Shown piece after piece: positions 45,456-64,000 of a stretch of 64,000 nucleotides of DNA. The position numbers were made by a program, and so were the translations under genes. Within the stretch, counting starts at the first letter, position 1; each line of letters starts with the position of its first letter. The notes beneath the pieces are model-generated. The model ran no database searches. It was given only the letters and a program-made list of their open reading frames with translations, and was not told the origin of the DNA. The stretch lies in NCBI GenBank assembly GCA_958296045.1, contig CATQHT010000003.1, positions 1,995,246 to 2,059,245 of the forward strand, written 5' to 3'. This DNA comes from Rhodothermales bacterium. Its GTDB lineage: Bacteria; Bacteroidota; Rhodothermia; Rhodothermales; Bin80.

Positions 45456-46043
45456 ATGGATGACCAGCTTCGCGAACGGCTGAATCACCTTTTCGACCGC
45501 ATCGCTTCCGCGTCGTTTCTAAATAGCCAGGGCATCGGCAACGAAATCGCGTTCTATATCTTCGACTATCCACCCAAAGAGGAGCTGGCCGTAAGGCAGC
45601 ATGTCGCGCGGCTTGTGGACCGCCTCAAGGGAGCCCCGCAGGACATACGCCCCGCGTCGGTGAACCTGTTCAGACTTGTGATTGACTTCCTGAAGGAGTT
45701 GGGATTCCTAGACATGTGCTTCCGGCTGCAGCGGGACCGGGGCAATAGGTTGCTGCTTGAGGCGCTGGAGGGACCCCTGGCTCCAGAACGCGTCGCCGGA
45801 CGGCTCGCCTCCGTGGCCAGACCTGACAGATACAACCTGATTCTCATTCACGGGGTGGGGAGCGCCTACCCGCTACTTCGAACGCATGAGCTGCTCGCAG
45901 CACTCCATCAGCTCATGGACCAGATCCCCGCCGTGTTGTTTTTTCCCGGCACCTACGAAGATGGCAGCCTGCAGCTTTTTGGAGGCACGAGCCGCGCGCT
46001 GAATGATCGTCATTACTACCGGGCTCTCCGCCTGGTGCCATAG
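45456..46043 (+). CDS. brxB: BrxB (DUF1788)
   Basis: 195 aa: LNHLFDRIASASFLNSQGIG, NEIAFYIFDYPPKEELAVRQ, DRYNLILIHGVGSAYPLLRT, then IPAVLFFPGTYEDGSLQLFG. The F-Y-I-F-D-Y-P and PGxYxGxxLxLFG-like blocks are typical of BrxB. It is a structural BREX protein that works with PglZ and PglX. It lies 27 bp before brxC in the same direction. Confidence 0.93.
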   Translation: MDDQLRERLNHLFDRIASASFLNSQGIGNEIAFYIFDYPPKEELAVRQHVARLVDRLKGAPQDIRPASVNLFRLVIDFLKELGFLDMCFRLQRDRGNRLLLEALEGPLAPERVAGRLASVARPDRYNLILIHGVGSAYPLLRTHELLAALHQLMDQIPAVLFFPGTYEDGSLQLFGGTSRALNDRHYYRALRLVP

Positions 46044-46070: not shown

Positions 46071-49000
46071 ATGAGGATTCGAGAGCTTTTTGAGAGGGAT
46101 GTCTTTCGCCACCTTAACGGCGTCATAAAGGCGGATCAGCTGGATGCCATGTCCGTCTGGCAGGAGCTGGACGAATTCGTGGTCACGCATGAGCTGAAGC
46201 GGCACTTTGAGCAGTTTTTCTCGATGTACAGCATGTCGCTACAGCGCGGCGCCGACCCCGACCTGATCGGCAACACGGGCGTCTGGGTGTCCGGCTTTTT
46301 CGGATCCGGCAAGTCCCACTTCATCAAGGTGCTGTCCTACCTGCTCAAGAATGACGAGCACACGCTCGCTGGCGAGACCCGTCGCGCTGTTGACTTCTTC
46401 GACGCAAAGGTCCGTGACCCCGTGCTTCGCAAGGACATCCAGCGCGCGGCAGCTTCTAGCACGGACGTCATCCTCTTCAACATCGACGGCCAAGCCGATC
46501 GCACCAAGAAGGACCCGATGCTGCAGGTGCTGGTCCGCGTCTTGGACAAGCATGCCGGGTACTGCGCTGATTACCCACATATCGCTGGCATTGAGCGCCG
46601 ACTTGAAGGCCGCGGCTTGTTGACGTCCTTTCACGAGGCCTTTGCCGCAAGGGCCAAGGGATCGTGGCCAGCCCTGCGACACGCCTGGCACTTTTATCGT
46701 AAAGAGGTGGCGGGGGCGCTATCTGACGTGCTCGAGCAGAGCGCGCAAGCGAGTGATCAGCTGATAGATACCGCCAGGGAGCAGTTTCCGCTCACGGTCG
46801 AGAATTTCTGCAAGTGGGTCAAAGAATTTATTGACCGCAAAGGGCAGGAGCACCGCTTGGTGTTCCTGATTGATGAGGTGGGTCAGTTCATCGGGACGGA
46901 CACTTCCCTCATGTTGCGTCTGCAGACCATCACGGAGATGCTGGGCACGGTGTGTCGCGGCCGGGCCTGGATCGTTGTCACATCGCAGGAAGATATCGAC
47001 AAGGTGGTAGGCAGTGTAGAGCGCAGCCTAGCCAACGACTTTTCCAAAATTCAGGGACGTTTCCAGACGCGCCTGTCATTATCGAGCGCGAACGTCGATG
47101 AGGTTCTTCAGCGGCGCCTGTTGGCCAAGCGGCCCGAGGTTCGCAGCACGCTGGAGGACGTCTTCAGGGCCAAGGGCGACATCTTAAAAAACCAGCTTTC
47201 CTTCCGCGATGTGGGCATGACGATGTCGCCTTTTGCCAATCAGGCGGGCTTTGTCCGCAACTATCCGGTGGCGCCTTACCAGTTCAAGCTCCTGCAGAAG
47301 GTGTTCGAAGCTATTCGCGCGGCTGGTGCTACTGGCAAGCACCTTGCACGGGGAGAGCGATCGCTGCTCGACGCGTTCCAACAGGCCTTGCGCTTGGTGG
47401 CCGACGACCCGGTCGGTGTGCTTATTCCACTCTACCGCTTTTACCCAGCCATCGAGAATTTCCTGGACACCTCGGTCAAACTGACCATTGAGCAGGCCTC
47501 GAAGGACCAAGCACTGCAGCCTTTGGACGTAGATGTCTTGAAGGTGCTGTTTCTTGTCCGTTTCGTCACCGAGGTCCGGTGCAACGTCGACAACTTGGTG
47601 ACGCTTTGTTTGGCGCAGATTGACGCCCCCCGGCTTGCGCTCCGCGCCAGTATCGAGGAGGGTCTTTTGCGGCTGGAGCGGCTGACGCTCATCAGTCGCA
47701 ACGGCGACCATTACTCATTTCTGACCAGCGAGGAGCAGGAGGTCAGCCGCAAGATCGCCCGCACTGAAGTTGAGCCCCACAAGAAGTCCGAGGTGCTGAC
47801 GAAGCTTATCTACCAAGAGGTGTTCGCGGACAAGTCGAAGCACCGTTACAAGCCGAGCAAGAAGGACTTCACGCTACAGAGGGAGGCTGATGGGAGCGTC
47901 CTGGGCAACCGGGTGGACGGCGCGCTCGTGGTTTCGGTTATTACGCCGCTTGCGGACGACTTTGACGTGCATCGCGACCCGGCTCACTGCCTTCAGGCGA
48001 GCAGGCAGTCCGGCGGCCAGGTCCTTATTCGCCTGCCAGATGACCCTTCGTTTAATCGGGAGCTGACCAAGCTTTGCCGCACAGAAACGTATCTGCGTAC
48101 GCAGGATGGGCAGACCCTGCCGCCGTCGATAAAGAACATCCATCAGAACCTTTGGAGCCAGTGCGGGCAGCGGCGCAAGCGTTTGCACCTCCTTTTGGAC
48201 AAGCACATCGGCGAAGCTCAGTTTTTTGCAGCCGGTCAGATGCTTCAGACCACGAGCCATGGGGCTGCACGGTCCTTCGATAAAGCGCTGGACTACCTCA
48301 TCGAGAACACGTTCAGCAAGATGGGGTACCTGGATCGATTTGAGGCCGATCCGGTCAGGAGCGCAGCCACCCTGCTTCGACGCGCTTCCAGCGGCCAAGG
48401 GCCCCTGATCCGTGACGAAGGTCAGCCAAACCGTCGAGCACTCGAGGACCTTACCGAATACCTTGTTCTCAGTTCGAAGCTGAGCCGGCGCATCGTGATT
48501 AGCGATCTGGTAAAAAGGTACACGCGGCGCCCGTACGGATGGCCAGAAGGGGAGGTCATCCTGCTCTTGGCCAGACTGGTCATACTAAGCAGGGTACAGG
48601 TACTGCGCGGCAGCGCCGCGGTGGATAAGCCACAGCTTGCCGACCTCTTTCGAAAGAGAGGTACATGGAAGACTCTGGTCGTCCGGGCTCGCGAGCGCAT
48701 TGACGACAGCACTTTGGCAGCTGCCAAGCGCCTTGGGCACCAGCTCTTCCATGAACTTGGACCAAACGACGCCGACGCGCTTGTATCATTCTTAAAGGAT
48801 CACCTACAGGCCTGGAAGACTACGATTGGGCGGTACGTTGACCACCAGCGTAGCTCCGAAAGCCTGCCGGACTACCCCAGAGCCACCCGCGCGTCGGAGA
48901 TCGTCCAGGCCTTACTGGCTGTGCGTGAGACGCTTCCTTTCTTGAAACGCTTTCTAAAGGCCGAGCCCGACCTTACCGCTACCAAAGGGGCGGCCAGCGA

Positions 49001-49622
49001 TCTTGGGCATTTTCTGAACCACCAGCTGCCCACTTGGCTGAGGCTGGTAGAGGCACTGCGCCGCTTTGAGCAAAACGACCTGGAGCTAAGCAGAGATGAC
49101 AGAGCTAAGGGTGCACTCATACGTCTGCGGGAGATTCACAGTGCTTCGAAGCCGTTCGGCATGATCCAAGAGGTGGATGATCTTATCCGCAGGGTTGAGA
49201 GCGTCAATCAGCGCCTGCTCAATAAGCACCGCGCAGCGGCAAAGACCAGCGTTAAAGCGGCTCTGGCTACCGTTGAAGCTGCGATTGACGCGTTGCCGCG
49301 GGCCCGCGCATCAAAGGGGAGCATTCTGGCACCGCTCCAGAAGCTGCAGAGACGTGTGGATCTAACGAGTACGCTCACCCACCTTGGGCAGGCTACGCGC
49401 GAGGCGCCAGACCTCGAGTCTGCAGCGCGAAGAGACATTGCACGTTTAAAGCAGCGCCCTGAGCCAGAGCCCTCACCACCGAAGATCCGCGATGTTCGTG
49501 CTGCTAAGCTGGCTCCTAGGCACCCCTTGAAGACGCTCGCCGATGTAGACGCATTCCTTGCAGCTCTACGCAGTGAGCTGGAGCAAGCACTGAGGGAAAC
49601 ATCGCATGTCAGGATCCTATAG
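46071..49622 (+). CDS. brxC: BrxC, BREX P-loop ATPase
   Basis: 1183 aa. The start MRIRELFERDVFRHLNGVIK and YSMSLQRGADPDLIGNTGVW lead to Walker A GFFGSGKSHF (Gly75-Ser82). A Walker B-like LVFLIDEVGQFIG is near residue 265, and TSQEDIDKVVGSVERSLAND follows. The long C-terminal half is helical with coiled-coil parts (LLRRASSGQ, RLREIHSASKPFGMIQEVDD). BrxC is a large AAA-type ATPase of the BREX core, thought to regulate DNA recognition or methylation. It ends 3 bp before pglX-1. No lesion was seen. Confidence 0.95.
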   Translation: MRIRELFERDVFRHLNGVIKADQLDAMSVWQELDEFVVTHELKRHFEQFFSMYSMSLQRGADPDLIGNTGVWVSGFFGSGKSHFIKVLSYLLKNDEHTLAGETRRAVDFFDAKVRDPVLRKDIQRAAASSTDVILFNIDGQADRTKKDPMLQVLVRVLDKHAGYCADYPHIAGIERRLEGRGLLTSFHEAFAARAKGSWPALRHAWHFYRKEVAGALSDVLEQSAQASDQLIDTAREQFPLTVENFCKWVKEFIDRKGQEHRLVFLIDEVGQFIGTDTSLMLRLQTITEMLGTVCRGRAWIVVTSQEDIDKVVGSVERSLANDFSKIQGRFQTRLSLSSANVDEVLQRRLLAKRPEVRSTLEDVFRAKGDILKNQLSFRDVGMTMSPFANQAGFVRNYPVAPYQFKLLQKVFEAIRAAGATGKHLARGERSLLDAFQQALRLVADDPVGVLIPLYRFYPAIENFLDTSVKLTIEQASKDQALQPLDVDVLKVLFLVRFVTEVRCNVDNLVTLCLAQIDAPRLALRASIEEGLLRLERLTLISRNGDHYSFLTSEEQEVSRKIARTEVEPHKKSEVLTKLIYQEVFADKSKHRYKPSKKDFTLQREADGSVLGNRVDGALVVSVITPLADDFDVHRDPAHCLQASRQSGGQVLIRLPDDPSFNRELTKLCRTETYLRTQDGQTLPPSIKNIHQNLWSQCGQRRKRLHLLLDKHIGEAQFFAAGQMLQTTSHGAARSFDKALDYLIENTFSKMGYLDRFEADPVRSAATLLRRASSGQGPLIRDEGQPNRRALEDLTEYLVLSSKLSRRIVISDLVKRYTRRPYGWPEGEVILLLARLVILSRVQVLRGSAAVDKPQLADLFRKRGTWKTLVVRARERIDDSTLAAAKRLGHQLFHELGPNDADALVSFLKDHLQAWKTTIGRYVDHQRSSESLPDYPRATRASEIVQALLAVRETLPFLKRFLKAEPDLTATKGAASDLGHFLNHQLPTWLRLVEALRRFEQNDLELSRDDRAKGALIRLREIHSASKPFGMIQEVDDLIRRVESVNQRLLNKHRAAAKTSVKAALATVEAAIDALPRARASKGSILAPLQKLQRRVDLTSTLTHLGQATREAPDLESAARRDIARLKQRPEPEPSPPKIRDVRAAKLAPRHPLKTLADVDAFLAALRSELEQALRETSHVRIL

Positions 49623-49625
49623 CCT

Positions 49626-52600
49626 GTGAAGCATTTTGCTCAGCTGAAATCCTACGCGGAGCGGGCGCGACGCGCATTCATCACGGCCGTGACGGAGCGG
49701 GCTGCCGAGTACGGCCTCACCGCACATGGTGCCGCACCGCTCACGCAACGTGGTGACACGGTATTTATCGGCGGGGCGCACTTTCCTATACGGGTTGCAC
49801 GGCTGCGTGAGCAGCTGAAAGCGCGCATTGAGCGCCATGGCTTTGCCCAATTCAAGGAAGAGATGGCCTACACTTGGTTCAACCGGTTTGTGGCCATCCG
49901 GTACATGGAGCTGCACGGCCATCTCCGCCACGGGCTGCGCGTCCTCAGCCACCCAAATGGGGCCAGCGAGCCTGAAATCCTCAAGCGTGCCACGGAAGTG
50001 GCACTGCCTGGCTTGGATCGCACCCAAGTGATTCGGCTGAAGCTGGACGGCTCACAGGACGAAGCGCTCTACCGGCTGTTGATCGTGGCTCAATGCAACG
50101 CCCTGAGCCAAGCCATGCCACTGCTGTTCGATCCTATCGGCAGCGCTACGGAGCTCCTGATTCCCCGCAACCTCCTACACACCCAATCGCCTATGAAGCA
50201 GCTGGTGAATGAGGTGCCCGAAGATGCCTGGGAGGACATCGAGATTGTCGGGTGGCTGTACCAATTCTACAATGCCGAGCGCAAGAAAGAGGTGATCGGC
50301 AAGACCGTGGCCGCGGAAGATATCCCTGCCGCCACGCAGCTTTTTACGCCGGACTGGATCGTCCAATATCTGGTGCAGAATTCGCTAGGCGCGCTGTGGA
50401 TCGGCGCAGACCGCCGCTCAGCACTCCTTAAGCAGATGCCCTTCCATGAGCGTACTGTAGATCCGACGCAAAACACAGGATTACCCCCCCCATACCTATC
50501 TTACACATATATCCGACCTGGAAGCAGTCACGATTCTCGACCCTGCCTGCGGCTCCGGGCATATCCTGCTGGAGGCGTACGACCTCCTGCGCGCCATCTA
50601 TCTGGAACGCGGTTACAGGCCCCGAGACTTGGCGCAGTTCATCCTCGAAAAGAACCTGTTCGGCCTGGATGTCGATCCACGGGCTACGCAACTTGCCAGC
50701 TTTGCCCTTCTGATGAAGGGACTGGAAGATGATCCTGACCTGCTAACAGCCCCGACGGTGCCTTTGAATGTGCGGCCCATTCGTGACAGCGGGGACCTGG
50801 ATGTGCAGCTCCTCACCGAGAGCCTGCTATTGGCTCATTATGGCGTGAGCGCCGATGACCTTGAGCCACTCAAGCAGCTCTTTCTGGAAGGCACCACCTT
50901 CGGCTCCTTATTGAAGGTGCCTGAGACCCTTAGCGACAAGCTCCCTGCCTTGGCGCGCCTCTGCAGAGCGCCCACACCTCAAGACGCATTTGCTGCCGAT
51001 GCGCTCAGGCGTTTAAGGCCCCTGGTGGCGCAGGCGCAGCTGTTGGCCCGGCGGTACGGATTTGTGGTCACAAACCCACCGTACATGGGCAGCGGCTCAA
51101 TGTGCGCATCGCTCAAGAAACATGTGCGAAAGCACTATCCGACAGCATATCGGGACCTTTTTGCCTGCTTCATTCAGCGCGGCTTGGACTTGGCCAAACC
51201 CGGCGGTTTCTGCGCCATGGTCACCATGCACAGCTGGATGTTCTTGTCCTCCTTTGAAAAGATGCGGTGCGGCCTCTTGCGCACCCACACCATTCGGGTG
51301 CTGGCCCATCTGGGGGCCCGGGCTTTTGAGAGCATTAGTGGACAGGTGGTTCAAACAGCCGCGTTCGTGCTGCAAAACGCACCGCCTCAGAGCTACAAAC
51401 CTACGTTCACGCAGCTGGTGGACGGCTGCGCTGCGCAAAAACGCCAAGCACTGCTGCAGGGTAAGCATCGCTACCAGAACATCGCGCAGCACCAGTTTGA
51501 GCTGATACCCGGCTCTCCCATCGCGTATTGGCTCAGTGACGCCCTCCTCGACGCATTCCGGCGCGGCACACCACTCGGGCAGACTTTAGACGCCAGGGTG
51601 GGCTTGCAAATAGGAGACACTAGTCGATTCCTACGGCGGTGGTGGGAGGTAGATTATGGCCGCATTGGGTTTGGGATGAGAGACCGGAAAGAGGCGCAGC
51701 GTTCGGGCAAGAAGTGGTTTCCGCACAACAAGGGGGGCACATCCCGCAAGTGGTACGGGAATCATGAGTATGTGGTCAACTGGGAGGAAGACGGGCGAGA
51801 AATCCGCCTCTACGGCTCAGAGGACGGAGGAAAACCAAGGTCAAGGGTTCAGAATATCGGGTACTACTTTCGTAAGGCACTGACATGGTCCGATATTGCT
51901 TCTGGGCCGCCTTCATTCCGGTTGAATGACGGTGGCGATATTCATGGTAACAAAGGGAATTGCGCATTTGAATGCGCCAAAGTAGGCCTTCGCCGCGTCG
52001 CTGGGTTCAGTAATTCCCCTGTACTGGCCGCTATCAACAGTGCATTGAATCCAACTCTTAGCTTTTCGGTCGGCTATTTCGCCAAGATACCTTTCGTCGA
52101 GCCCACCACAGAGCAAGAGGCTCTGCAGGTAGACACCAATGTCAGTGCCCTGACGCGCATTGCGCGCAAGGACTGGGACGCTTTTGAGTCATCCTGGGAT
52201 TTCCAGGGCCCGCCAGTGCTGCCCGTTGCAGCTGCAAATCCGGCACCTCTGGAGACCTGCTACCACGCATGGGTTGCATCTAATAGGGAAGCCGCGCGCA
52301 CCACGCGCAGCCTGGAAGAAGAAATCAACCGCGTCTTTATCGACGCATACGGCCTAGCCGATGAGCTCTCGCCTGTGGTCCCGCTGGAAGAGGTCACGCT
52401 CACTGTGAACCCGGCCTACCGCTATCGAAGCATCGCGTCAGAGGAAGAAAGGCAAGCACGGTTTCTGCGAGACTCCATTACTGAACTGGTTTCCTTCGCG
52501 ATTGCATGCATGATGGGACGATACAGCCTCGATGCGCCAGGGCTCGTGTACGCCGGAAGCGGCTCCGAGGGCTTTGACTTCAGCCGCTACACAGCATTCC

Positions 52601-53217
52601 CAGCAGATAACGACGGGATCGTCCCCATCACGGCCCAGCCATGGTTCGAGGATGATGCGGCTAACCGCCTGATACGCTTCGTCGCCACAGTATGGGATCC
52701 GACCGAGCTGGAAACCAACCTCTCGTTTCTGGCCAAAGGCCTGAGTGCCAACGCCCGCGGGTCCAGTCGCAGCACACTGCGACGATACTTGGTGCGCGGC
52801 TTCTACAAAGATCATCTGACGACCTACAAGAAGCGGCCCATCTACTGGTTGTTCACCAGCGGGCGACGACGCACCTTTCAGTGCTTGGTATACCTGCACC
52901 GCTACCACGAAGGCACGCTGGCACGCATGCGGACCGACTATGTCATTGCACTGCAAAGTAAGACGGCTTCGCGCCTTAAGCAGCTGACAACTGACATTGA
53001 ATCGGCAGGCAGAGCCCGCCAGCGCCGACTTGAAAAGGAAAAGGCAAATCTGCAGAAGGATCTCTTGGAGCTGCAAGACTTCGACGATAAGCTACGCTAC
53101 TTCGCGGACCAACAGATATCGCTGGACCTCGATGATGGAGTTAAGGTCAACTATGGCAAATTCGGAGGCCTTCTCGCAAATGTCCGAGGTATTACAGGAC
53201 GTCCGCCCGCATCATGA
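49626..53217 (+). CDS. pglX: PglX-1, BREX adenine methyltransferase; phase-OFF by frameshift in a C8 tract
   Basis: The GTG at 49626 opens a frame of 368 codons that ends at 50732. The remaining protein continues one frame over, to 53217. The switch point is the run of 8 C at 50484-50491; a run of 7 or 10 C would give one protein of about 1197 aa. Before the tract it reads AQLKSYAERARRAFITAVTE and VGWLYQFYNAERKKEVIGKT. Beyond it lie motif I DPACGSGHILLEAYD, then KYGFVVTNPPYMGSGS-type NPPY motif (about 51073) and MTase/specificity regions to the end. PglX methylates adenine to mark self DNA. It lies between brxC and pglZ (4-bp overlap). A sequencing error in the homopolymer is the main alternative. 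Confidence 0.9.
50484..50491 (+). repeat. Poly-C tract (8 C) in pglX-1, OFF length
   Basis: Eight consecutive C follow TTA in the codons for Gly-Leu-Pro-Pro. The downstream frame is one base out. Homopolymer tracts of this length slip during replication and are classic phase-variation switches. Confidence 0.9.
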
Positions 53218-55823
53218 AGATCACGACACTGGTAGCTAAGTTACAGAAGCTCTTTGACGACAGGGATACCCGTGTCGTCTTTTGGGATGACGCCGGAGCG
53301 CACTTTGAGAACGACCTGCCCGCGATCCAGCTCGAAGGCGTCGAAATGATCGAGCTCTCTGCGTGCAGCAGCCTACAGGTGAAGGTGCAGATCGAGCTTG
53401 GGCCCCCTGAGCGCCAATATCTGCTCTACTTAAGTGAACAAACGCCTCCCGCAGACGAGGACTGGCTGTGCGACATCCGCTTATACAGCCCAACCTTTCG
53501 GGCGGACTACGACTCCATCGTGCTAGCCGAGCTCGGCCTACATGGCAGCACGCTGCGTGAGCATGTAAGGAAACGCCGCAAGTTCTTTAAGAGCGCCAAG
53601 CGCACAGAGGCTCTCAAGGCGCAGGTCAGCGCTCGGGACACGCCGCTGGATCTGGATCGCAAGATGCTTGCCGTAGCTACGAAAGCCGCTACCGACCAGC
53701 CCTTTGACATCTTCCTGGCACTGTTACATTCCTGGGCGCCATCCCCGGGTGGGGCCCAGCCTCATATGCCACCACCGCGCTGGAAAGAGATTGAACGCCT
53801 TGACCTGAGCAGCACCTTCTGGAAGCTTACGAAGCAACTCTTCGGGTATTCCGCCCCAACGCCTTCGATTGCCGACTGGGTCCATCGGGTGTTGGTCACC
53901 GACCTTAGCCACGCTCTCAGGGCCGACCGTGTCCCTCAGACGTTGCAGAATCTGGTCCTAAAGCCTCCAGGCATCCGCCATGCCGTGGTTTTCGCAGCCC
54001 AGTGGCGCGACAGCCACCGCCTGGGTAGCAGCTATAACTGGTGGGCCGACCGGGCCTGGCGCCAGTTGGCTATCATATCGCCACTGTGTGCTTTCCACGC
54101 TGAGGAGCTGGCTGAGGTACACACCTTCTCGGGCATTGACGCGATCATTGCACAGGAGTTAGCGCACAGGCTGGCCGCGCAAGACCATGCCGCTGATGCG
54201 GAAGAAACCTGTCGGGTGTGTGAGCATCGGAAGCAGGGCCACTGGATCACGTCCCACTCGGTGCCCAAGGATGTGCGGGACTCCTGGTCCGCCGTCTACG
54301 AAGCGCTGGCCGCAGCCGCCCGGCTGCTGGAGCTTCGAAGTACGCACCAGGAAGGCTTTGGCTCAAGAAGTGGGGAAGAACTTTATCGTTGGTATGAGCG
54401 TGAGCTCTTCCGCTTTGATCAGCTTTACCGGCAGTTTCGAGACGCACTCGACGCGGCCCCTGAATATGGGGCTGGAACCTTGAAAAGACTTGCCAGGCGC
54501 GTCGAAGACTGCTACAGCCATTGGTTCCTGACGGAGCTTGCGCTCGCCTGGAGCCTTCACATCGACGCTTGCCTGCCTAGGCGATGGGAGTGCGGGTCCG
54601 TGCCTCAACAGAAGCACTTCTTTACCCTCAACGTCAGCCCCTACCTGCATAACCGTGGCGCGAAGCGGCGCGCCTTCGTCATCATCAGTGATGCCCTGAG
54701 ATTTGAGGCGGGCGAAGCACTTATGCGGAGACTTAATGGCCAAAGGGGTATCGATGCCTCACTCACCTCGCAGCTCGGCGTGCTACCATCGTATACCGCG
54801 CTCGGCATGGCAAGCCTGCTGCCCCACAGGGCACTTCATTACGCAAAGAGTGGATCAGTCCTGGTGGACGGCCAGCCGTCAGGCTCCCTTGAGCAGCGTG
54901 ACGCAGTACTCAAAGCCAGTGCGAGCGGCATTGCCGTGAACGCCAAGGATCTTCTGGCGATGAGCCGACAGGAGGGCAGGGCGCTCGTTGGAGGCGCTCG
55001 CGTCGTATACATCTACCACAACGAAATCGATGCTGTGGGAGATTCGCGAAACACGGAATCTGAAGCCTGTGCCGCAACCCGGCGCGCCATCAATACCCTT
55101 ACCCAACTGATCAAGCATCTAATAAATTCACTCAATGCCACCTATGTGCTCGTCACGGCCGACCACGGGTTCGTCTATACCGCAACACAACCTGCAGCGC
55201 CAGACCACAGCCCCCTGACGCACGAGCCCCCAAGGTCAGTAATAAGCAAACAGCGCTACCTGTTGGGTAAGCGCCTGCCAACAGCAGACGGCACATGGCT
55301 CGGCCACACCAAGACCTCCGCTGGCGCTGGAGGCGACATGCAGTTCCTAATTCCGAAGGCCTACAACCGCTTTAACTTCAGAGGGAGCACGCGCTTCTTT
55401 CATGGCGGCGCCATGCTGCAGGAAGTCTGCATCCCTATCATAACGGTTCGGGAGAAGCGTGACAAGGTGCCGCCCAGACACGCCCAGGTGCAGGTACTGG
55501 GCCATAGATTCCGAATCACGACTAAGTTGCACCGCTTTGAGCTATTACAGACGGAGGCGGTGTCGGAAATGGTGCTGGGCGTAACACTCAAGGTTGCCAT
55601 CTACGCTGGATCGATACCGATCAGCAATGTGCAAACGATCCGATTAAACAGCACGTCTGCGGAGCAACGCGATCGCATACATGCTGTCACCCTGACGCTT
55701 CGCGACCTTCCGCATTACGATAAGCGAGCAAAGTACCACCTCCGTCTCACCAACGCGGAAGCAGGTGCGCTACAGCAGGAGATCGAGGTGACCATCGATC
55801 GGGTCCTCGATGATGACTTCTGA
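53214..55823 (+). CDS. pglZ: PglZ, BREX alkaline-phosphatase-superfamily protein (type 1)
   Basis: 869 aa. N-terminal region with DRDTRVVFWDDAGAHFENDL and an LLYLSEQTPPADEDWLCDIR segment. The phosphatase-fold core carries AFVIISDALRFEAGEALMRR (Asp493) and YVLVTADHGFVYT (Asp650, His651). The middle part has a Cys/His-containing DAEETCRVCEHRKQGHW loop. PglZ is essential in all known BREX and Pgl systems and binds PglX. Overlaps pglX-1 by 4 bp and the brxL remnant by 14 bp, so it is translated within the same operon. No lesion was seen. Confidence 0.95.
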   Translation: MKITTLVAKLQKLFDDRDTRVVFWDDAGAHFENDLPAIQLEGVEMIELSACSSLQVKVQIELGPPERQYLLYLSEQTPPADEDWLCDIRLYSPTFRADYDSIVLAELGLHGSTLREHVRKRRKFFKSAKRTEALKAQVSARDTPLDLDRKMLAVATKAATDQPFDIFLALLHSWAPSPGGAQPHMPPPRWKEIERLDLSSTFWKLTKQLFGYSAPTPSIADWVHRVLVTDLSHALRADRVPQTLQNLVLKPPGIRHAVVFAAQWRDSHRLGSSYNWWADRAWRQLAIISPLCAFHAEELAEVHTFSGIDAIIAQELAHRLAAQDHAADAEETCRVCEHRKQGHWITSHSVPKDVRDSWSAVYEALAAAARLLELRSTHQEGFGSRSGEELYRWYERELFRFDQLYRQFRDALDAAPEYGAGTLKRLARRVEDCYSHWFLTELALAWSLHIDACLPRRWECGSVPQQKHFFTLNVSPYLHNRGAKRRAFVIISDALRFEAGEALMRRLNGQRGIDASLTSQLGVLPSYTALGMASLLPHRALHYAKSGSVLVDGQPSGSLEQRDAVLKASASGIAVNAKDLLAMSRQEGRALVGGARVVYIYHNEIDAVGDSRNTESEACAATRRAINTLTQLIKHLINSLNATYVLVTADHGFVYTATQPAAPDHSPLTHEPPRSVISKQRYLLGKRLPTADGTWLGHTKTSAGAGGDMQFLIPKAYNRFNFRGSTRFFHGGAMLQEVCIPIITVREKRDKVPPRHAQVQVLGHRFRITTKLHRFELLQTEAVSEMVLGVTLKVAIYAGSIPISNVQTIRLNSTSAEQRDRIHAVTLTLRDLPHYDKRAKYHLRLTNAEAGALQQEIEVTIDRVLDDDF

Positions 55824-55976
55824 AAGTGCCTGGACTGCTCAAGACCTTGACCAGCTGCTGCACACCCTCTCTGCAGGCCGGGACATCCGCAATCGCCACA
55901 CGAAACTGATCATAGAAGGGGCCAACGCCCCACTTGTGTCCAGGAGTACTTCGTGGTGCAACTGTTGCGCGGCTGA
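55810..55976 (+). pseudogene. brxL: BrxL N-terminal remnant
   Basis: ATG 55810 (or 55813) gives DLDQLLHTLSAGRDIRNRHT followed by K-L-I-I-E-G-A-N-A-P. After a one-base shift the next frame reads TCVQEYFVVQLLRG and stops at 55976. This matches the first 55-60 residues of BrxL (LDxLLxxLFPGxxVRKDL, then GANVPxYVLEYLLGRYC). The remaining 600 or so residues, including the Lon-like ATPase, are absent. The remnant overlaps the pglZ end as brxL does in intact type 1 loci. The match is short and judged by eye. Confidence 0.6.
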
Positions 55977-56424
55977 CGCCGCTGCTAAGCCGGCATCTGT
56001 CTTCTTCTGGTGACCTACATCTTGAGCGGAGGGGCTGACATTGGCTGCGTGCCTGGCGCTATGCACCAACTTACTGGACACCAAAATGCTGTCTCACGTG
56101 GTGGCGCACGGCCCCATATGTATCGTCGACATCACTTAGGACCCCACAGGTCTGGCGAGATTGTGGAAGGTGGCAGCCGACGCCGGCGCAACCAAAGAGC
56201 TTCTGCCCGCACCGAACGCGGCGAATCTGGCCTCGGTGCCCCCGAGCTCGTGTCGCGGTCTCGGACGCATTTTTGCGTTTCGCCGCCTAACGCGGCCATC
56301 AAATGCCTGCGAAAAGATTGATGCGTGCCTTACAGATCCGCTGGCCACTTGGCTGGCACCGGCCTCCTGTACCTTGTGGCCCTCACCGGCTTGGCCTTCT
56401 GCTGCGTCAACCCTCTGATACGTA
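55977..56424. other. Spacer between the brxL remnant and pglX-2
   Basis: No supportable gene. About 450 bp of overlapping short frames, probably the scar of brxL loss plus the upstream region of pglX-2. Confidence 0.4.
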
Positions 56425-59400
56425 ATGAATCTCTCTTCCCTGCGGTCTTATGCCCGAGGCGCGCGCCGCGACTTCTTAGCAGCAGTGACAGCCCAGATGC
56501 AGCTGCTCGGGCTGTATCCCGATGGCACTGCACCCTCGAAAATACGTGGCGATGCCCTTCTTGTCGGCCCCCATGTCCTTCCAGCTGCCGCCGCACAGCC
56601 CCGCCAGCAACTGGCGGAGCGCATCGCGAGCCAAGGGTATGCCACCGTGGTCGATGAGATGGCCTACACCTGGTTTAACCGCCTGGTAGCCCTGCGCTTT
56701 ATGGAGCTGCACGGATACCTGGGCCACGGCTATCGTGTCCTCAGCCACAGGAACGACGACCAGGAACCCGAAATTATGCACCATGTGCAGGATGTGCAGC
56801 TGCCGGGCCTAGATCGTTCGCGCGCTCTGCACATGAAGCTGGATGGCGGACGTGAAGAAGAGCTTTACCGGATGCTGTTGCTCGCGCAGTGCAATGCGTT
56901 GCACCGCGCCATCCCTCAGCTGTTTGACCGCGTACAGGCCGCCAGCGCCCTCCTGCTGCCCGCCAACCTGCTTCATTCCGACTCCGTTATCCGACGGCTC
57001 GTGCAGGATGTTCACGAAGAAGCATGGCAGGATATTAAAGTGGTTGGCTGGCTGTACCAGTTCTATATCTCCGAGCGCAAAGACGAAGTGATGGGCACGG
57101 TCGTGGCCTCGGAAGACATCCCTGCCGCCACGCAGCTTTTCACGCCGGACTGGATCGTCCAATATCTGGTGCAGAATTCGCTAGGCGCGCTGTGGATCGG
57201 CGCAGACCGCCGCTCAGCACTCCTTGAGCAGATGCCCTTCCATGAGCGTACTGTAGATCCGACACAAGACACAGGATTACCCCCCCCCCATACCTATATT
57301 ACACATATCACCGATCTGGAAGCTGTCACGATTCTCGACCCTGCCTGCGGCTCCGGTCATATCCTACTGGAGGCATACGACCTCCTGCGCGCCATCTATC
57401 TGGAACGCGGCTACAGGCCGCGAGACCTGGCGCAGCTCATCCTCGAAAAGAATCTGTTCGGGCTCGACATTGACCGCCGGGCGGCGCAGCTGACCACGTT
57501 CTGCCTCATGATGAAGGGGCGCGCGGATGACCCGAAGCTGCTCGCGAAACGACCCCGGCTGAACATCCTTCCTCTCACGGGCAGCGAGTCACTCAAGGGC
57601 GCGCTGGCATCGGATGCCACGACAAGGAAGGTCTTCGGCAAGGCGCATCAGCATGCGCTGGATCTGGCTAAGCTGTTCGAACATGGGGCTACGGCAGGTT
57701 CCTTGCTGAGCGTCCCGACGGATCTGGCAGAGCAGCTCCCACATCTTGAGCGCACAGCTGCGCGGCTGCTCCAACGGGGCGACATGTTTCGGACACAGAC
57801 CGCACGTCTGGTGCTCCGCCTGGTACGCCAGGCCATGCTGCTTCACAGACAGTACGATGTGGTGGTGGCCAACCCGCCGTACATGGGGAGCAATGCCATG
57901 AACGCGATCCTTAAGGCCTACGTGAGGAAAGCTTTTCCAGCAGCTAAGAAGGACCTGTTCAGCTGCTTTATCGAACGTTGCTGTCAAATGACGAAGCCGG
58001 AGGGCTTTGCGGCGCTCGTCACTATGCACAACTGGATGTTTATCGCGTCCTTTGAAGAGATGCGGCGCCACCTTTTGCGCACCCGCACCATCCGGGTCCT
58101 GGCTCACCTGGGGCCCAAAGCTTTTGAGAGCATTGGCGGAGAGGTGGTACAGACCGCCGCCTTCGTACTACAGAACGCACCGCCGAGGGACCATACGCCT
58201 GCTTTTGCGCGGCTGGTGGACGGCAAGGCAGCGGACAAGCGCCAAGCGCTGCTGCGGGGTGAACATCGCTACCGGAACATCGCGCAGCACCAATTCGAGC
58301 TCATTCCCGGATGTCCGGTCGCCTACTGGCTCGGTAGCAAAGTCTACGACCTGTATGCGCAAAGCCCGCTGATGAAGGATGTGGTACATGCGCGTATCGG
58401 GCTGACAACCGGCGATAACAATCGGTTTCTGCGGCGCTGGTGGGAGGTGGATGTCGCGCGGATCGGGTTTGGGATGCACAGCCAGGCCGAGACCGTGCGC
58501 TCGGGCCTGAAGTGGTTTCCGCTCAACAAGGGTGGCGGCTTTCGGCGGTGGTTCGGCAACCTGGAGTATGTGATCAACTGGGAAGATGGCGCTCGCGAAA
58601 TCCGACAGGAGCATAGTGGCCGTAGAGCGCCGAACCATTATGCTGTCCCGGACACCTATTTCCAGCCCACACTATCCTGGACGGATGTCGGCACGGGCCC
58701 CAAGGGATTCCGGATGTATGACGAGGGATTCATTCACAACAACGTCGGGCACAGTGTCACCGGAAACACGGCCGTCAGCCGCGCTTTGTTGGCTGGCTTC
58801 TGTAACACGCCGGTAGTTGATAGCCTCGCCGAAGCCATCAACCCCACCTTGCATTTTGGCATTCGGGACTTTGGCCGCTTGCCCGCGCCTCCGAGTGTCC
58901 CCGATGCTCTACAAGGCATCGTGGAGCGCCATGTGCGCACGCTTGTTGCTATTTCCCGGGCGGACTGGAATGCTTATGAGACCGCTTGGGATTTTGAGGT
59001 AAACCCGCTCATCCGTCTTAAGCAGGGCGGGAGCTCGGAATCCCTTGAAGCATGCCTGCAGATCTGGGAAGCGGAATGCCGGCGTGCCTTCCAGACTACG
59101 CGTGCGTTGGAGGAAGGCAACAATCGGCGCTTCATCGAACTGTGCGGGCTGACGGGTACCATGCGCCCTGGCGTACCTGAAGATCGCATCACGCTGATGG
59201 GCAATCCCGCCTACCGTTACAGGAACAAGACGTCTCGGTTCAGGAGGGATGCAATGGCTGAACTCCTCTCGTATGCTCTTGGCTGCATGATGGGGCGTTA
59301 CAGCCTTGACGAGGCGGGCCTGGTCTATGCCGCAGCTAAGGGGGTCGGCTTCGATCGTACGCGATACCGGACCTTCCCTGCCGACGATGACGGGATCGTT

Positions 59401-59967
59401 CCCGTAACCCCAGACCCTTGGTTCGAGGATGATTTGCTGGTGCGCTTAGAGGAGTTTTTACGCGTGGTGTGGGGGCCGAAAGAGCTTGAAGCCGGCCTGT
59501 CCTTTATGGCCGACCACTTGGCCTCATCAGGCCAAGGCTCCAGCCGGACCAAGCTCCGTTCATTTGCCCAGCAGAAGTTCTATGCGCACCACTTGAAGAT
59601 GTACCGAAAGCGCCCGATTTACTGGCTCATCACCAGCGGACCGGCGCGCGCCTTCCAGTGCTTCGTGTATCTGCATCGATACCATGCGGGCACGCTGGCG
59701 CGTGTGCGCACACGGTACGTGATTCCACTCCAGGGCATCCTTGCCACCCGTCTGCGCCGGCTGGATGAGGACATCAGGAATGCGGATACCCAGCACCGCA
59801 GCGCGCGGCTGACCACGCAAAAGGCCGCGATTGCCAAGCAGAACCTGGAGTTGCGCCAGTTTGATGATCTGCTGCGTAGCTACGCAGACCGCGCGCAGCC
59901 GCTTGACCTGGACGACGGTATAAGGGACAACTACGCGGTCTTTAGCCCGCTGTTGGCTCGCCTGTAG
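56425..59967 (+). CDS. pglX: PglX-2, BREX adenine methyltransferase; in frame with a C10 tract
   Basis: 1180 aa, uninterrupted. The N-terminal part reads LRSYARGARRDFLAAVTAQM and VGWLYQFYISERKDEVMGTV. The poly-C tract (57280-57289) codes for Pro286-288 in DTGLPPPHTYITHI. Methyltransferase motif I is Asp305-P-A-C-G-S-G, motif IV Asn483-PPY in VVANPPYMGSNAMNAILKAY. The C-terminal 600 residues contain the specificity region and a coiled coil ending DDGIRDNYAVFSPLLARL. The gene sits behind the brxL remnant, an extra position for a second pglX. With pglX-1 OFF it is the only active methyltransferase of the locus. Confidence 0.94.
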   Translation: MNLSSLRSYARGARRDFLAAVTAQMQLLGLYPDGTAPSKIRGDALLVGPHVLPAAAAQPRQQLAERIASQGYATVVDEMAYTWFNRLVALRFMELHGYLGHGYRVLSHRNDDQEPEIMHHVQDVQLPGLDRSRALHMKLDGGREEELYRMLLLAQCNALHRAIPQLFDRVQAASALLLPANLLHSDSVIRRLVQDVHEEAWQDIKVVGWLYQFYISERKDEVMGTVVASEDIPAATQLFTPDWIVQYLVQNSLGALWIGADRRSALLEQMPFHERTVDPTQDTGLPPPHTYITHITDLEAVTILDPACGSGHILLEAYDLLRAIYLERGYRPRDLAQLILEKNLFGLDIDRRAAQLTTFCLMMKGRADDPKLLAKRPRLNILPLTGSESLKGALASDATTRKVFGKAHQHALDLAKLFEHGATAGSLLSVPTDLAEQLPHLERTAARLLQRGDMFRTQTARLVLRLVRQAMLLHRQYDVVVANPPYMGSNAMNAILKAYVRKAFPAAKKDLFSCFIERCCQMTKPEGFAALVTMHNWMFIASFEEMRRHLLRTRTIRVLAHLGPKAFESIGGEVVQTAAFVLQNAPPRDHTPAFARLVDGKAADKRQALLRGEHRYRNIAQHQFELIPGCPVAYWLGSKVYDLYAQSPLMKDVVHARIGLTTGDNNRFLRRWWEVDVARIGFGMHSQAETVRSGLKWFPLNKGGGFRRWFGNLEYVINWEDGAREIRQEHSGRRAPNHYAVPDTYFQPTLSWTDVGTGPKGFRMYDEGFIHNNVGHSVTGNTAVSRALLAGFCNTPVVDSLAEAINPTLHFGIRDFGRLPAPPSVPDALQGIVERHVRTLVAISRADWNAYETAWDFEVNPLIRLKQGGSSESLEACLQIWEAECRRAFQTTRALEEGNNRRFIELCGLTGTMRPGVPEDRITLMGNPAYRYRNKTSRFRRDAMAELLSYALGCMMGRYSLDEAGLVYAAAKGVGFDRTRYRTFPADDDGIVPVTPDPWFEDDLLVRLEEFLRVVWGPKELEAGLSFMADHLASSGQGSSRTKLRSFAQQKFYAHHLKMYRKRPIYWLITSGPARAFQCFVYLHRYHAGTLARVRTRYVIPLQGILATRLRRLDEDIRNADTQHRSARLTTQKAAIAKQNLELRQFDDLLRSYADRAQPLDLDDGIRDNYAVFSPLLARL
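57280..57289 (+). repeat. Poly-C tract (10 C) in pglX-2, ON length
   Basis: Ten consecutive C at exactly the codons where pglX-1 has eight. The frame is maintained (CCC CCC CCC CAT). The loss or gain of one or two C would truncate the protein just before motif I. Confidence 0.9.
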
Positions 59968-60229: not shown

Positions 60230-60915
60230 CGTCTGCCTGGCTGGAGCAAGGTCGGGGGCACGCTGGGGGCCCGATAGGGACGCTGGTCTGAGCGATGGGA
60301 AGGGTAACAGAAGCGCTGCGCGGTCATTTCTGACCCTCAAACGAGCTTCGTTAGCTCCTGGCGGCGCAGAGTGGATGCAGCTTACCCGTCGCGGGCTTGT
60401 CGGAGACAGAAAAAGAAGGGCTCAGCCGAAGCTGGAGCGGGCGAGCCTTAAGTGGCCTTCGCGCGAGCGGCGTGCCAAGCTCGTCGTTTCGCTTCTTTAT
60501 TCCTGACCACTTTGCCTAGTCGGTGAATGTCTGCCGCCAGCACCGCCAGCCCTACCGACCGATCGAAGCCCTCCTTTCCGTGGGTACGTATGAGCCCCAT
60601 CCCCTGCTGTTGCAGGTTGTTGATGGCGGACTCGATCGCAGGATGCTGTAGACGCGCCTTGAGAACATCGGGATGAGACTCCCGATCGCGTTGTTTCGCA
60701 TTGCGGTAACTAAGCTTGGGTATGACGTTCAAGTCCAGCAGCTCATCCAAGGCGTCGCGATTCTTCGCAGAGTAGAAGCCCTTATCCATGCTGCAGGACG
60801 TAAGGGACGGATAGCGCTTCTTTGCTTCGCCTATGAAACCCACGATCATGGCCTTATCGCACGTTGCCGAATGCGAAGCAGCCGGAATCGTCGTTAGCCC
60901 ACGCCAGCGGATCAT
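60230..60915 (-). mobile_element. ISNCY-type element remnant, inverted copy
   Basis: The stretch repeats, in reverse orientation, the region up to about 4460. Shared landmarks include CATTTCTGACCCTCAA (60325-60340), the hairpin-T region near 60405-60450 and the transposase C-terminus. The 5' half of the transposase is missing beyond 60915. Confidence 0.65.
60448..60915 (-). pseudogene. ISNCY-type transposase, C-terminal half
   Basis: 155 residues: MIVGFIGEAKKRYPSLTSCS, MDKGFYSAKNRDALDELLDL, RLQHPAIESAINNLQQQGMG and GFDRSVGLAVLAADIHRLGK. Differs from the copy at 3869-4351 by scattered substitutions, for example VLAADIHR versus AANIHR. The first 20 residues are not transposase. The N-terminal half is absent, so it is non-functional. 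Confidence 0.75.
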
Positions 60916-60944
60916 CCTTACCGAATGCCGGTCGGCGACAGGGT

Positions 60945-61226
60945 ATGGCGGATTCTGGCTCGGATGACTGGGTAGAGGTCACGCATCCTTTCCATCCATG
61001 GTTTGGTCGCCGATTTCCGCGCCAATACTGCCTGACAATTGGCAATGTGCGGCTGGTACGCTGCATTGTGGATGAAAACACGCTACGGTGTTTGCCCAGG
61101 GCGTGGACAGACTTGCGCGTGGTGGACGACTTCGAGCGGGTTTCAGCGGGCCGTGCACTCTTTCGGGCAGACGATCTTGTGGCCCTGAGGTCGCTGGTGG
61201 ACACGCTTTTGGAGGAACACCTTTAA
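60945..61226 (+). CDS. DUF5372-like small protein, accessory to the serine recombinase
   Basis: 93 aa from ATG 60945: VEVTHPFHPWFGRRFPRQYC, VDENTLRCLPRAWTDLRVVD and FERVSAGRALFRADDLVALR. The H-P-F-H-P-x-F-G-R block and L-P-x-x-W-T-D are the signature I associate with DUF5372, a family encoded beside large serine recombinases and an HTH protein. Function unknown, probably in regulation or targeting of the recombinase. An upstream GTG-open frame to 60864 overlaps the ISNCY remnant and is not used. Confidence 0.7.
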   Translation: MADSGSDDWVEVTHPFHPWFGRRFPRQYCLTIGNVRLVRCIVDENTLRCLPRAWTDLRVVDDFERVSAGRALFRADDLVALRSLVDTLLEEHL

Positions 61227-61360
61227 TGCAACGCATAATCGCGTATTGCGCAACTTCGTGGAAAATGAGCTGTTTTTGGCCGTAGTAGGTCGTTATTGTG
61301 TGCCTAGGTTGCATTCCGAAGCGACGTACATATTCCGTGGTGATCATTACTCCTGATGGC

Positions 61361-61801
61361 ATGTCCAGTGACAAGAGCGAGCGCCTGCAGAGGTCTAGAA
61401 CCCTCAACCCGAACCCAGAGGCGGTCTCCGATCCCCTATTTGAGTGCAGCCCCTTCTTCGATCCGCGAGACCTCCTGCAAGTCCGCTACGAGATGATACG
61501 TTCTCATACGAAAGACACGACTCTTGCAGCGGTCGCGGCCCGGTACGGCATGTCTGTACCTACCTGTGTGCGCGTAAAGCGCGCTTTCCGGGCAGGCGGT
61601 CTGCAAGCCCTGATTCCGGAGCGGCGCGGGCCCCGGGGACCCCGCAAGATTACGCCCGAAATCTTAGAGTTTGCCGAGAATTGCCGCGCCTTACCTGACG
61701 CCGTCAGCGTCCGTAAACTCGCCGAGATGATACGCGAGCGCTTCGATGTAACCATCCACTACAGCAGCCTTCACCGAGCGCTGTCAAAAAAAAACTCCTA
61801 A
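61361..61801 (+). CDS. Helix-turn-helix protein of the recombinase module, ending at an A9 tract
   Basis: 146 aa from ATG 61361 (GTG 61298 also in frame). HTH of the IS630/homeodomain-like type: TTLAAVAARYGMSVPTCVRV, AFRAGGLQALIPERRGPRGP and SVRKLAEMIRERFDVTIHYS followed by LHRAL. The frame stops directly after AAAAAAAAA (61786-61794). If one A is skipped the reading continues for about 95 residues (KTPKRADDPSRDSQDTHRYD, then RWRQRWLSGQHSQAISLLCH) to 62081, overlapping the recombinase start. That tail looks protein-like, so a slippage product is possible. Confidence 0.75.
   Translation: MSSDKSERLQRSRTLNPNPEAVSDPLFECSPFFDPRDLLQVRYEMIRSHTKDTTLAAVAARYGMSVPTCVRVKRAFRAGGLQALIPERRGPRGPRKITPEILEFAENCRALPDAVSVRKLAEMIRERFDVTIHYSSLHRALSKKNS
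61786..61794 (+). repeat. Poly-A tract (9 A), possible slippage site
   Basis: Nine consecutive A at the end of the HTH frame, one codon before its stop. A-tracts of this length cause transcriptional slippage or ribosomal frameshifting in many IS genes. Confidence 0.6.
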
Positions 61802-62058: not shown

Positions 62059-64000
62059 ATGCCCGGACCCTCATCCCATAAAATCACTGCCGACCATCTC
62101 AACCGCCGGGCCTGCCTGTACATCCGCCAGTCCTCGCTGCATCAGGTGCAGACCCACAAGGAGAGCCAGCACCGTCAGTACGACCTGCGCAGGCGTGCCA
62201 TTGCCTTGGGCTGGCCCGAAGATCGGATTGACGTGATTGACGAGGACCAGGGCAAGTCTGGCGCCACCAGTACCCAACGTATGGGATTCCAGGATCTGCG
62301 TGCGCGTGTCGGTGCTGGAGAAGTGGGCATGGTGCTCAGTCTCGAAGTATCACGCCTGTGCCGAGACAATGCGGAATGGCATCAATTACTTCGGATCGCA
62401 GCCGTGGCAAAGACCCTCATCCTGGACGAGCATGGCATTTACGACGTAGGCGACATCAACGACTGGATGCTGCTCGGGCTCAAGGGGCAGCTCTCGGAGT
62501 ACGAACTGCGCGGCATACGCGCACGCATGGTTGGGGGACAGCGCTCGAAGGCACTGCGTGGAGAGCTCAAGCTTCACTTACCGATCGGGCTGGCATACAT
62601 CGAAGCAGACAGGGTTGTCTTGGATCCAGATCAATCCATCACCGAAGCGATTGCCTTGGTATTCACGACCTTCCGGCGACTGGGGTCCGCCATGCAGACC
62701 ACCCAGTGGTTCCGGCGACAAGCGATTCGCTTACCTTCGCGGCCCCACACGGGTAACAGTGAAGTGCACTGGGCAGTGCCCAATTACAGCCAGATTCAGC
62801 GCATCCTCCATAATCCCCGCTATGCCGGCTGCTACGCCTACGGCCGTACGGGCATGCGCACACGCCCAGATGGGTCCGTGCAGCGTACCTCCCTGCCCAT
62901 AGACCAGTGGCTGGTGTGTATTCGGGATGCCCACAAGGGCTACATTGACTGGGAGGAATATTTACACAACCAAGAGACCATGCGCACGAACGCGGCGAGC
63001 TACCTTGGCGGCGCCGAGCGTACGCCGCCGCCACGCAAGGGGGTGGCCTTGCTTCAATCCCGCATCATTTGCGGCCTGTGTGGTCAGAGGATGCGCGTAA
63101 ACTACAACTATACTAACCGCAAAGAAGTTAAGTGGTACTATCTGTGCAAGGAGAACATCGTTCGCCGCGGCACGCGTACCTGCCAAAGCATGCGTGGAGA
63201 CGTGCTGGATGCGGCGGTAGGTCGCTTTGTTGTCGCCGCGGTCAACCGGGAGAACCTGACGCTTTCGCTGATGGTGCGCGAGCAGCTGCGCAGCGACTTT
63301 GAGGCGGCAGATCGCCAGAGAATCAACCATATCGAAAGCTTACGATATCAGGTGGATCTGGCCCGCCGCAGGTACATGGAAGTGGACCCGTCGAATCGCC
63401 TCGTGTCTGCGACGCTGGAGGCCGAATGGGAAGCCCGTCTGAAGGCCCATGGTGAAGCCGTCAGAGAACAAGAGCGGTACAAGAAAGCCCAGCATAGCAC
63501 ACCCGATGCCGCGTTGGACCAGCGCATCCTTACGTTGGCCAGCGACTTTGGCACCGTGTGGGAAGCGGCTCATACCACCAACAAGGACCGGAAGCGTCTC
63601 TTGGGATTGCTGATCGAGGACATCACCCTGACCCGAAGGGGATACCAGGTGAATGTCGGATTGCGATTGCGTGGCGGACGAACCCACGAGCTGCCTCCAG
63701 TAGCGTTGCCCCTGCCTCGCGCTACGGTCATCCGTCGCGATGCCTCCAAGCAGGCCCTGGCCGAACTGGAGGAGCTGCTTGAGGCAGGCTACGATGATTC
63801 CCAAGCCGCCGAGGAGCTGAACCTGCGCGGGCACCGCGACAGCTTGGGAGGACGGTTCAACGCAAAACGCATTCGCACCATTCGCGTGCGTCACAAGATG
63901 CCTGGAGGAATCGAGCGGCAACGCGAAAAGATGCGTGCGCAGGGCTACAAAACCGCCAAAGAACTCGCCGCCGAACTCGCAATAGATGTTTCCACGGTAG
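62059..64000 (+). CDS. Large serine recombinase, C-terminus beyond the window
   Basis: At least 647 codons with no stop before the window edge. The resolvase domain starts RRACLYIRQSSLHQVQTHKE (catalytic Ser near residue 25), with Arg-rich EDRIDVIDEDQGKSGATSTQ and LSLEVSRLCRDNAEWHQLL. The recombinase domain has VPNYSQIQRILHNPRYAGCY. The zinc-ribbon SRIICGLCGQRMRVNYNYTN has two Cys, with more Cys in the WYYLCKE and TCQSMRG parts. The coiled-coil follows from about residue 415, and HTH-like segments YDDSQAAEELNLRGH and TAKELAAELAIDVS appear near the end. Such enzymes integrate or mobilise elements at att sites. No att site could be mapped as only one side is in the window. Confidence 0.9.
   Translation, partial: MPGPSSHKITADHLNRRACLYIRQSSLHQVQTHKESQHRQYDLRRRAIALGWPEDRIDVIDEDQGKSGATSTQRMGFQDLRARVGAGEVGMVLSLEVSRLCRDNAEWHQLLRIAAVAKTLILDEHGIYDVGDINDWMLLGLKGQLSEYELRGIRARMVGGQRSKALRGELKLHLPIGLAYIEADRVVLDPDQSITEAIALVFTTFRRLGSAMQTTQWFRRQAIRLPSRPHTGNSEVHWAVPNYSQIQRILHNPRYAGCYAYGRTGMRTRPDGSVQRTSLPIDQWLVCIRDAHKGYIDWEEYLHNQETMRTNAASYLGGAERTPPPRKGVALLQSRIICGLCGQRMRVNYNYTNRKEVKWYYLCKENIVRRGTRTCQSMRGDVLDAAVGRFVVAAVNRENLTLSLMVREQLRSDFEAADRQRINHIESLRYQVDLARRRYMEVDPSNRLVSATLEAEWEARLKAHGEAVREQERYKKAQHSTPDAALDQRILTLASDFGTVWEAAHTTNKDRKRLLGLLIEDITLTRRGYQVNVGLRLRGGRTHELPPVALPLPRATVIRRDASKQALAELEELLEAGYDDSQAAEELNLRGHRDSLGGRFNAKRIRTIRVRHKMPGGIERQREKMRAQGYKTAKELAAELAIDVSTV

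Follow-up and report, generated by a model that had tools for sequence, protein, structure and literature searches.

Two pglX genes, each probably under its own poly-C switch, in a type 1-derived BREX locus of a Rhodothermales bacterium

Results

Two PglX genes carry C-tracts at the same codons

The stretch of DNA analysed here, hereafter the window, comprises 64,000 nucleotides (nt) of contig CATQHT010000003.1 (forward strand, positions 1,995,246 to 2,059,245; assembly GCA_958296045.1) from a Rhodothermales bacterium and contains a bacteriophage exclusion (BREX) locus in which two genes encode the methyltransferase PglX (BrxX). All genes of the locus lie on the + strand, in the order brxA-brxB-brxC-pglX1-pglZ-(brxL relic)-pglX2, and both pglX genes (pglX1, positions 49626 to 53217 of the window; pglX2, 56425 to 59967) contain a run of cytosines before methyltransferase motif I, as an earlier note on this DNA had pointed out. 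The tract of pglX1 consists of eight cytosines (C8, 50484 to 50491) and precedes motif I (DPACGSGH) at 50539 to 50562, and that of pglX2 consists of ten (C10, 57280 to 57289) and precedes the same motif at 57337 to 57360. Each tract follows directly after TTA, encodes L-P-P-P, and is separated from the motif I codons by 47 nt, and the two occupy the same codon position.

Translation agrees with the further claim of that note that the tract is out of frame in pglX1 and in frame in pglX2. The reading frame of pglX1 runs from 49626 through the tract to a stop at 50732, which yields a product of 368 amino acids (49626 to 50732) without motif I; the rest of the gene, with DPACGSGH, NPPY, the target recognition domain (TRD), and the C-terminal domain, stays open as far as 53217 in a different frame and contains no second break. 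pglX2 is intact, a single open frame of 1180 amino acids that passes through C10. Since lengths of 7, 10, or 13 C (3n + 1) are in frame, pglX1 reads as OFF and pglX2 as ON. PADLOC labels both genes PglX (PDLC02521), matching both parts of pglX1 and the full length of pglX2, and the latter also matches the solved structures of PglX (8c45) and BrxX (9ewz) from end to end (E below 1e-268), with the methyltransferase domain, TRD, spacer, and C-terminal domain of the PglX/BrxX fold. When aligned to these solved proteins, the tracts map to a poorly conserved segment immediately ahead of motif I. Both C8 and C10 have the anatomy of a contingency locus, namely, a slip-prone homopolymer within the coding sequence whose length sets the frame, and they stand in opposite frames.

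Run lengths in the window and the genome

Two null expectations were used for run length, (i) a dinucleotide shuffle of the window and (ii) an extrapolation of the decay of C/G runs within it. Runs of length 4, 5, 6, and 7 number 268, 49, 9, and 0 in the window, followed by one C8 and one C10, which share a codon position in the two paralogues. In the genome as a whole, where counts rest on pattern searches, there are 30 C/G runs of at least 8 (four of length 8, three of 9, six of 10, six of 11, five of 12, four of 13, one of 15, and one of 17), a spectrum that forms a hump at 10 to 13 and shows no decay. At lengths of at least 10, 23 runs are present genome-wide, compared with ~0.9 expected from the decay in the window; by both the hump and this comparison, the genome contains tracts longer than chance would give.

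Of these 30 runs, seven fall within DNA methyltransferase genes. Besides pglX1 and pglX2, these are an Eco57I-type methyltransferase gene (C3:782142, C11), two methyltransferase-like genes (C1:163002, G13, and C3:1151726, G11), a gene for a type IIG-like enzyme (C2:164512, G12), whose tract closely precedes motif I, and one for a type ISP enzyme (C3:2784090, G17). Their reading frames are mixed, some tracts being in frame and some out, as expected under random switching. The products of the genes at C1:163002 and C3:1151726 are 29% identical, and their G13 and G11 stand at the same aligned position. An N6-methyltransferase gene and an HSDR_N-type gene each have a further run a short way upstream. 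The presence of SusD-family genes in the genome points to Bacteroidota.

Divergence and gene conversion of the two paralogues

Outside the tract region, about half of the amino acids are common to pglX1 and pglX2, and identity within the TRD is 44%. Fourfold-degenerate sites depart from this picture around the tract and motif I, where 50 of 57 (88%) are identical in the patch at 50310 to 50650 of pglX1, compared with 110 of 292 (38%) elsewhere (p 1.3e-12); the partner patch in pglX2, delimited by fourfold sites and a 60-base identity profile, spans 57106 to 57448. Upstream of the tract within the patch, the fourfold identity reaches 97%, and a second stretch with a raised value (64%) lies at 51210 to 51520. 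This pattern marks pglX1 and pglX2 as diverged paralogues in which a patch of ~340 bp, centred on the candidate switch and motif I, has been homogenised by gene conversion. The single pglX of two relatives in the same family is nearer to pglX1 than to pglX2 in most domains, and pglX1 therefore has the look of the resident gene, and pglX2 that of a paralogue that is older or was imported. In published structures, the TRD and a single loop in the methyltransferase domain together determine the 6-bp target motif (PMC11341690, PMC11842806); with the TRDs only 44% identical, two PglX target motifs are therefore expected.

A shared 3' flank

The 20 nt on the 3' side of the tract read ATAC[A/C]TAT[A/C]TTACACATAT. 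The genome has three copies of this sequence, all of which directly follow a C-run within a methyltransferase gene; the carriers are pglX1, pglX2, and the unrelated Eco57I-type gene at C3:782142, in which the flank lies in a stretch absent from, or highly variable among, homologues. Tract and flank together (the C-run plus ATACMTATMTTACACATAT, with the encoded peptide PPPHTYITHI) may represent a portable switch cassette, a suggestion that draws on three copies, two of them in paralogues, too few for certainty. The module was present in 0 of 195 other genomes tested, two of which had a variant with three mismatches that lacked the C-run.

The Eco57I-type gene (L022:1248-5000) encodes a methyltransferase of 1251 amino acids with its C11 in the stretch that homologues lack. 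Past the tract, another of its frames encodes PPPHTYITHI, followed by a second copy-like RxITRATDERT segment, and tract length may here swap the C-terminal ends of the protein. No plasmid match was found for the alternative-frame peptide of this gene.

The remaining genes of the locus and its surroundings

The other core genes are brxA (44254 to 44883; PADLOC BrxA PDLC02441, E 8.9e-61), brxB (45456 to 46043; BrxB PDLC02463, E 7.5e-60), an intact brxC of 1183 amino acids (46071 to 49622; BrxC PDLC02471, full length), and an intact pglZ of 869 amino acids (53214 to 55823; PglZ PDLC02547, E 2.5e-255). At the canonical site after pglZ lies a relic of brxL (55804 to 56318), detected with tblastn using the BrxL of a family relative that has the full canonical type 1 BREX gene set, and by a BrxL profile match interrupted by stops. 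It retains about 55 codons from the start of the gene and about 95 from its end, as an N-terminal remnant (55804 to 55968) and C-terminal remnants (56032 to 56241 and ~56208 to 56318); the middle is deleted, and a stop and frame changes are present. A BrxL profile search of the genome, which is 97% complete, found no second copy except a Lon-like match, and the idea of a brxL elsewhere in the genome was rejected.

The assignment to type 1 in the earlier note holds for brxA, brxB, brxC, pglX, and pglZ, which PADLOC recovers in order, and fails for brxL. Compared with canonical type 1 BREX (brxA-brxB-brxC-pglX-pglZ-brxL), the locus has 5 of 6 core genes in canonical order, but brxL is a relic and is followed by a second pglX. 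By its gene content, we class it as a BrxL-less, type 1-derived BREX locus and not as a full member of type 1.

Directly downstream of pglX2 are transposon remnants with DUF5372 and HTH_32 domains (60864 to 61801) and a large serine recombinase gene (62059 to 64000), which may mark how pglX2 or its flank arrived. Past the right end of the window (L021:5229-17090), an EcoRI-type adenine methyltransferase gene, with a C12 run ~420 nt before it, and a gene for a GmrSD/HNH-type nuclease are followed by a type III-B CRISPR effector operon. Judged by these neighbours, the BREX locus is part of a defence island.

Occurrence of the tract in other genomes

We scanned 84,980 species genomes for C-runs of at least 8 within 31 to 61 nt of DPAxGSGH, G-tracts and other positions being outside the scope of the scan, and no other pglX with such a run at this site was found. 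The three matches were two non-genes and one gene for an Eco57I-type methyltransferase, and the idea of the tract as a widespread feature of pglX at this site was rejected. In that gene, from a betaproteobacterial metagenome-assembled genome (JAKFUJ010000412.1), a C8 stands out of frame shortly before motif I and reads as a putative switch of the same kind in an unrelated lineage. Among 395 genomes of the phylum, searched with a pattern requiring G or C before C8, only the present genome matched. Inheritance of the tract within the family was likewise rejected, as neither the pglX of the two family relatives (L005 and L006) nor the other pglX genes surveyed in the phylum contain a C/G run of at least 8, and viral contigs gave no matches, on which ground spread on phage was rejected. 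C9 runs are plentiful in most genomes of the same family, and their counts vary widely between families. In a relative of another genus in this family (G001, L020:3740-7286), brxC is split into two frames exactly at a G8, both halves being brxC homologues; this is either a homopolymer interruption of BREX in another gene or an assembly error.

Long runs outside methyltransferase genes

An IS110-type element of 2.3 to 2.5 kb (L021:2323-4811 and L086:1332-3821, with right ends in L092, L099, L100, and L102) is flanked by C5 to C7 on the left and C11 to C15 on the right, and one copy splits the methyltransferase-like gene at C3:1151726 exactly within its G-tract. The element, which seems to target poly-C, was rejected as the origin of the pglX tracts, as these stand within coding sequence and no element adjoins them. 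Four similar copies of a G10 to G13 tract with common flanks (L087, L089, L091, and L104) also mark the beginning of genes whose secreted products contain leucine-rich repeats and immunoglobulin-like (He_PIG) domains; two of the products were compared and are 69% identical, and all four are likely phase-variable surface proteins. A class II (B12-dependent) ribonucleotide reductase gene (L096:1396-3000, C2:520409) has a G10 run close to its start, an odd place for a switch.

Discussion

The arrangement described above is probably one in which each of two divergent, full-length PglX (BrxX) genes is under its own poly-C translational on/off switch. Slipped-strand mispairing at replication would change each tract by one C; the full PglX would be made at lengths of 7, 10, or 13, and at any other length the product would be a truncated N-terminal domain lacking motif I. 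Switching would be separate for the two genes, and both PglX proteins would plug into one machine of BrxB, BrxC, and PglZ, with cells carrying either mark, both, or none and a population holding up to four marking states. Independent switching and the four states, as also proposed in the earlier note, follow if the tracts slip. An 8-G tract in pglX of Streptomyces coelicolor switches at a rate of 10^-2 to 10^-4 (PMC4365076), and tracts of 8 and 10 are therefore long enough. Further support comes from the opposite frames at one codon position, the lack of any other lesion in pglX1, the hump of run lengths across the genome, the seven tract-bearing methyltransferase genes in mixed frames, the absence of such a tract from the other pglX genes surveyed, the split of brxC at a G8 in a relative, the low conservation of the tract region, and the divergence of the TRDs. 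Gene conversion between the paralogues may have kept or copied the switch. As far as sequence alone can tell, the gene anatomy fits that of a phasevarion, which rests on a phase-variable methyltransferase.

Where type 1 BREX has been tested, restriction needs BrxL and methylation does not; 76% of type 1 systems have a BrxL, and the Salmonella BREX does without it, its restriction being BrxL-independent as well (PMC12839542, PMC12707154). With brxL a relic, the locus may therefore still methylate in the ON states, and restriction may be weak, absent, or dependent on PglZ. The suggestion that the none-on state bears on self-toxicity is doubtful, since the toxic state in Streptomyces is PglX without PglZ (PMC4365076) and not the absence of PglX; the risky step would be the switch from OFF to ON on an unmethylated genome.

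Several observations weigh against a pair of working switches: (i) the species is represented by one genome with a single assembled length per tract, in which an error in base count is possible and no length variation is seen; (ii) six of the 30 long runs lie at the end of the IS110-type element, outside switches, and not all runs are contingency loci; and (iii) with brxL dead, the BREX system is possibly partly inactive. The window has four C8 matches compared with a mean of 3.2 in the dinucleotide shuffle, which alone does not reject chance, this null being too loose for coding DNA. Chance C-runs were rejected on the run-length hump, the position of the tracts, and the class of genes that carry them.

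Homopolymers of at least 8 are a common site of length errors, and the C8 of pglX1, known from a single assembled sequence, could be a sequencing or assembly error for a true 7 or 10, in which case both genes would normally be on and the tracts would not be switches. We consider this unlikely, as the genome is assembled in 4 contigs and the other Pfam-matched genes of the window are full length; such an error would, moreover, erase only the OFF state of pglX1, and neither the C10 in pglX2 nor the hump of long tracts in methyltransferase genes across the genome would be affected. It is quite improbable that pglX2 has replaced pglX1 and that the latter is now a decaying pseudogene, with the C8 frameshift as its first lesion. 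The decayed brxL of the same locus and the mobile-element remnants and serine recombinase downstream would suit such decay, but ~1,190 codons of pglX1 hold no second lesion, and the break falls exactly at a homopolymer common to the intact paralogue, in a region recently homogenised with the working copy.

The long homopolymer before a frame change, with the downstream frame open, would also be compatible with programmed ribosomal frameshifting or transcriptional slippage at C8, by which some full-length PglX1 would always be made in the absence of a genetic switch. pglX2, however, has the same tract in frame, where a recoding site is needless, and the tracts of the other methyltransferases measure 11 to 17 nt in mixed frames, which makes recoding very improbable. 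Finally, the genes might be kept mainly as recombination partners, the conserved patch allowing exchange of specificity domains and the C-tract being incidental; type I systems do switch hsdS by recombination (PMC7394358), and both the conversion patch around motif I and the second region at 51210 to 51520 could serve this role. The patch is centred on the tract instead of adjoining the TRD, and the TRDs, at their low identity, bear no sign of recent exchange, and we give this possibility hardly any credence.

Returning to paired poly-C switches as the probable explanation, its components have precedents. Phase variation of pglX through a homopolymer and duplication of pglX have each been reported (PMC4365076, PMC6326788, PMC7513527, PMC11842806), the last of these mentioning both, and the earlier note was right that the former is known from Pgl. 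In the Pgl system of S. coelicolor, a type 2 BREX, a homopolymer in pglX likewise toggles the methyltransferase (G8 to G7 or longer; PMC4365076), but that system has one pglX with a G-tract, and PglW/PglY, whereas the present locus is type 1-derived and has two pglX genes, each with a C-tract. Type 1 loci with duplicated or invertible pglX, such as that of Lacticaseibacillus rhamnosus, also have more than one pglX and variable specificity (PMC7513527); here, in contrast, both genes are full length and have homologous poly-C switches, with no invertase between them. Phasevarions of type I, III, and IIG similarly switch a methyltransferase or its specificity through repeats or recombination (PMC7394358, PMC12707154), but here the switch would be in a BREX PglX, in which methyltransferase and specificity are one protein, and ON or OFF for each gene would also pick the motif. 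What is new is the presence of two full-length pglX genes with matched switches in one locus; the literature searched contained no case of these combined with a BrxL-less BREX and a set of tracts rich in methyltransferase genes.

More tentatively, and as a picture that is itself doubtful taken whole, a locus that lost its restriction arm may have turned into a two-channel epigenetic switch, with two PglX specificities, separate poly-C toggles kept alike by gene conversion, and four states, set among at least seven tract-bearing methyltransferase genes and using a tract and 3' flank that may be a portable cassette.

The specificity of BREX resides in one protein, PglX. If the proposed switching is true, a clonal population would hold several self-marks, and a phage modified in one cell would be unprotected in the next. 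The missing brxL makes the persistence of BREX as a methylation-only regulator testable, and, with tracts in seven methyltransferase genes, the genome would lend itself to testing combinatorial methylome switching in a bacterium other than the well-studied pathogens. The locus may now alter the DNA marks of the cell more than it kills phage.

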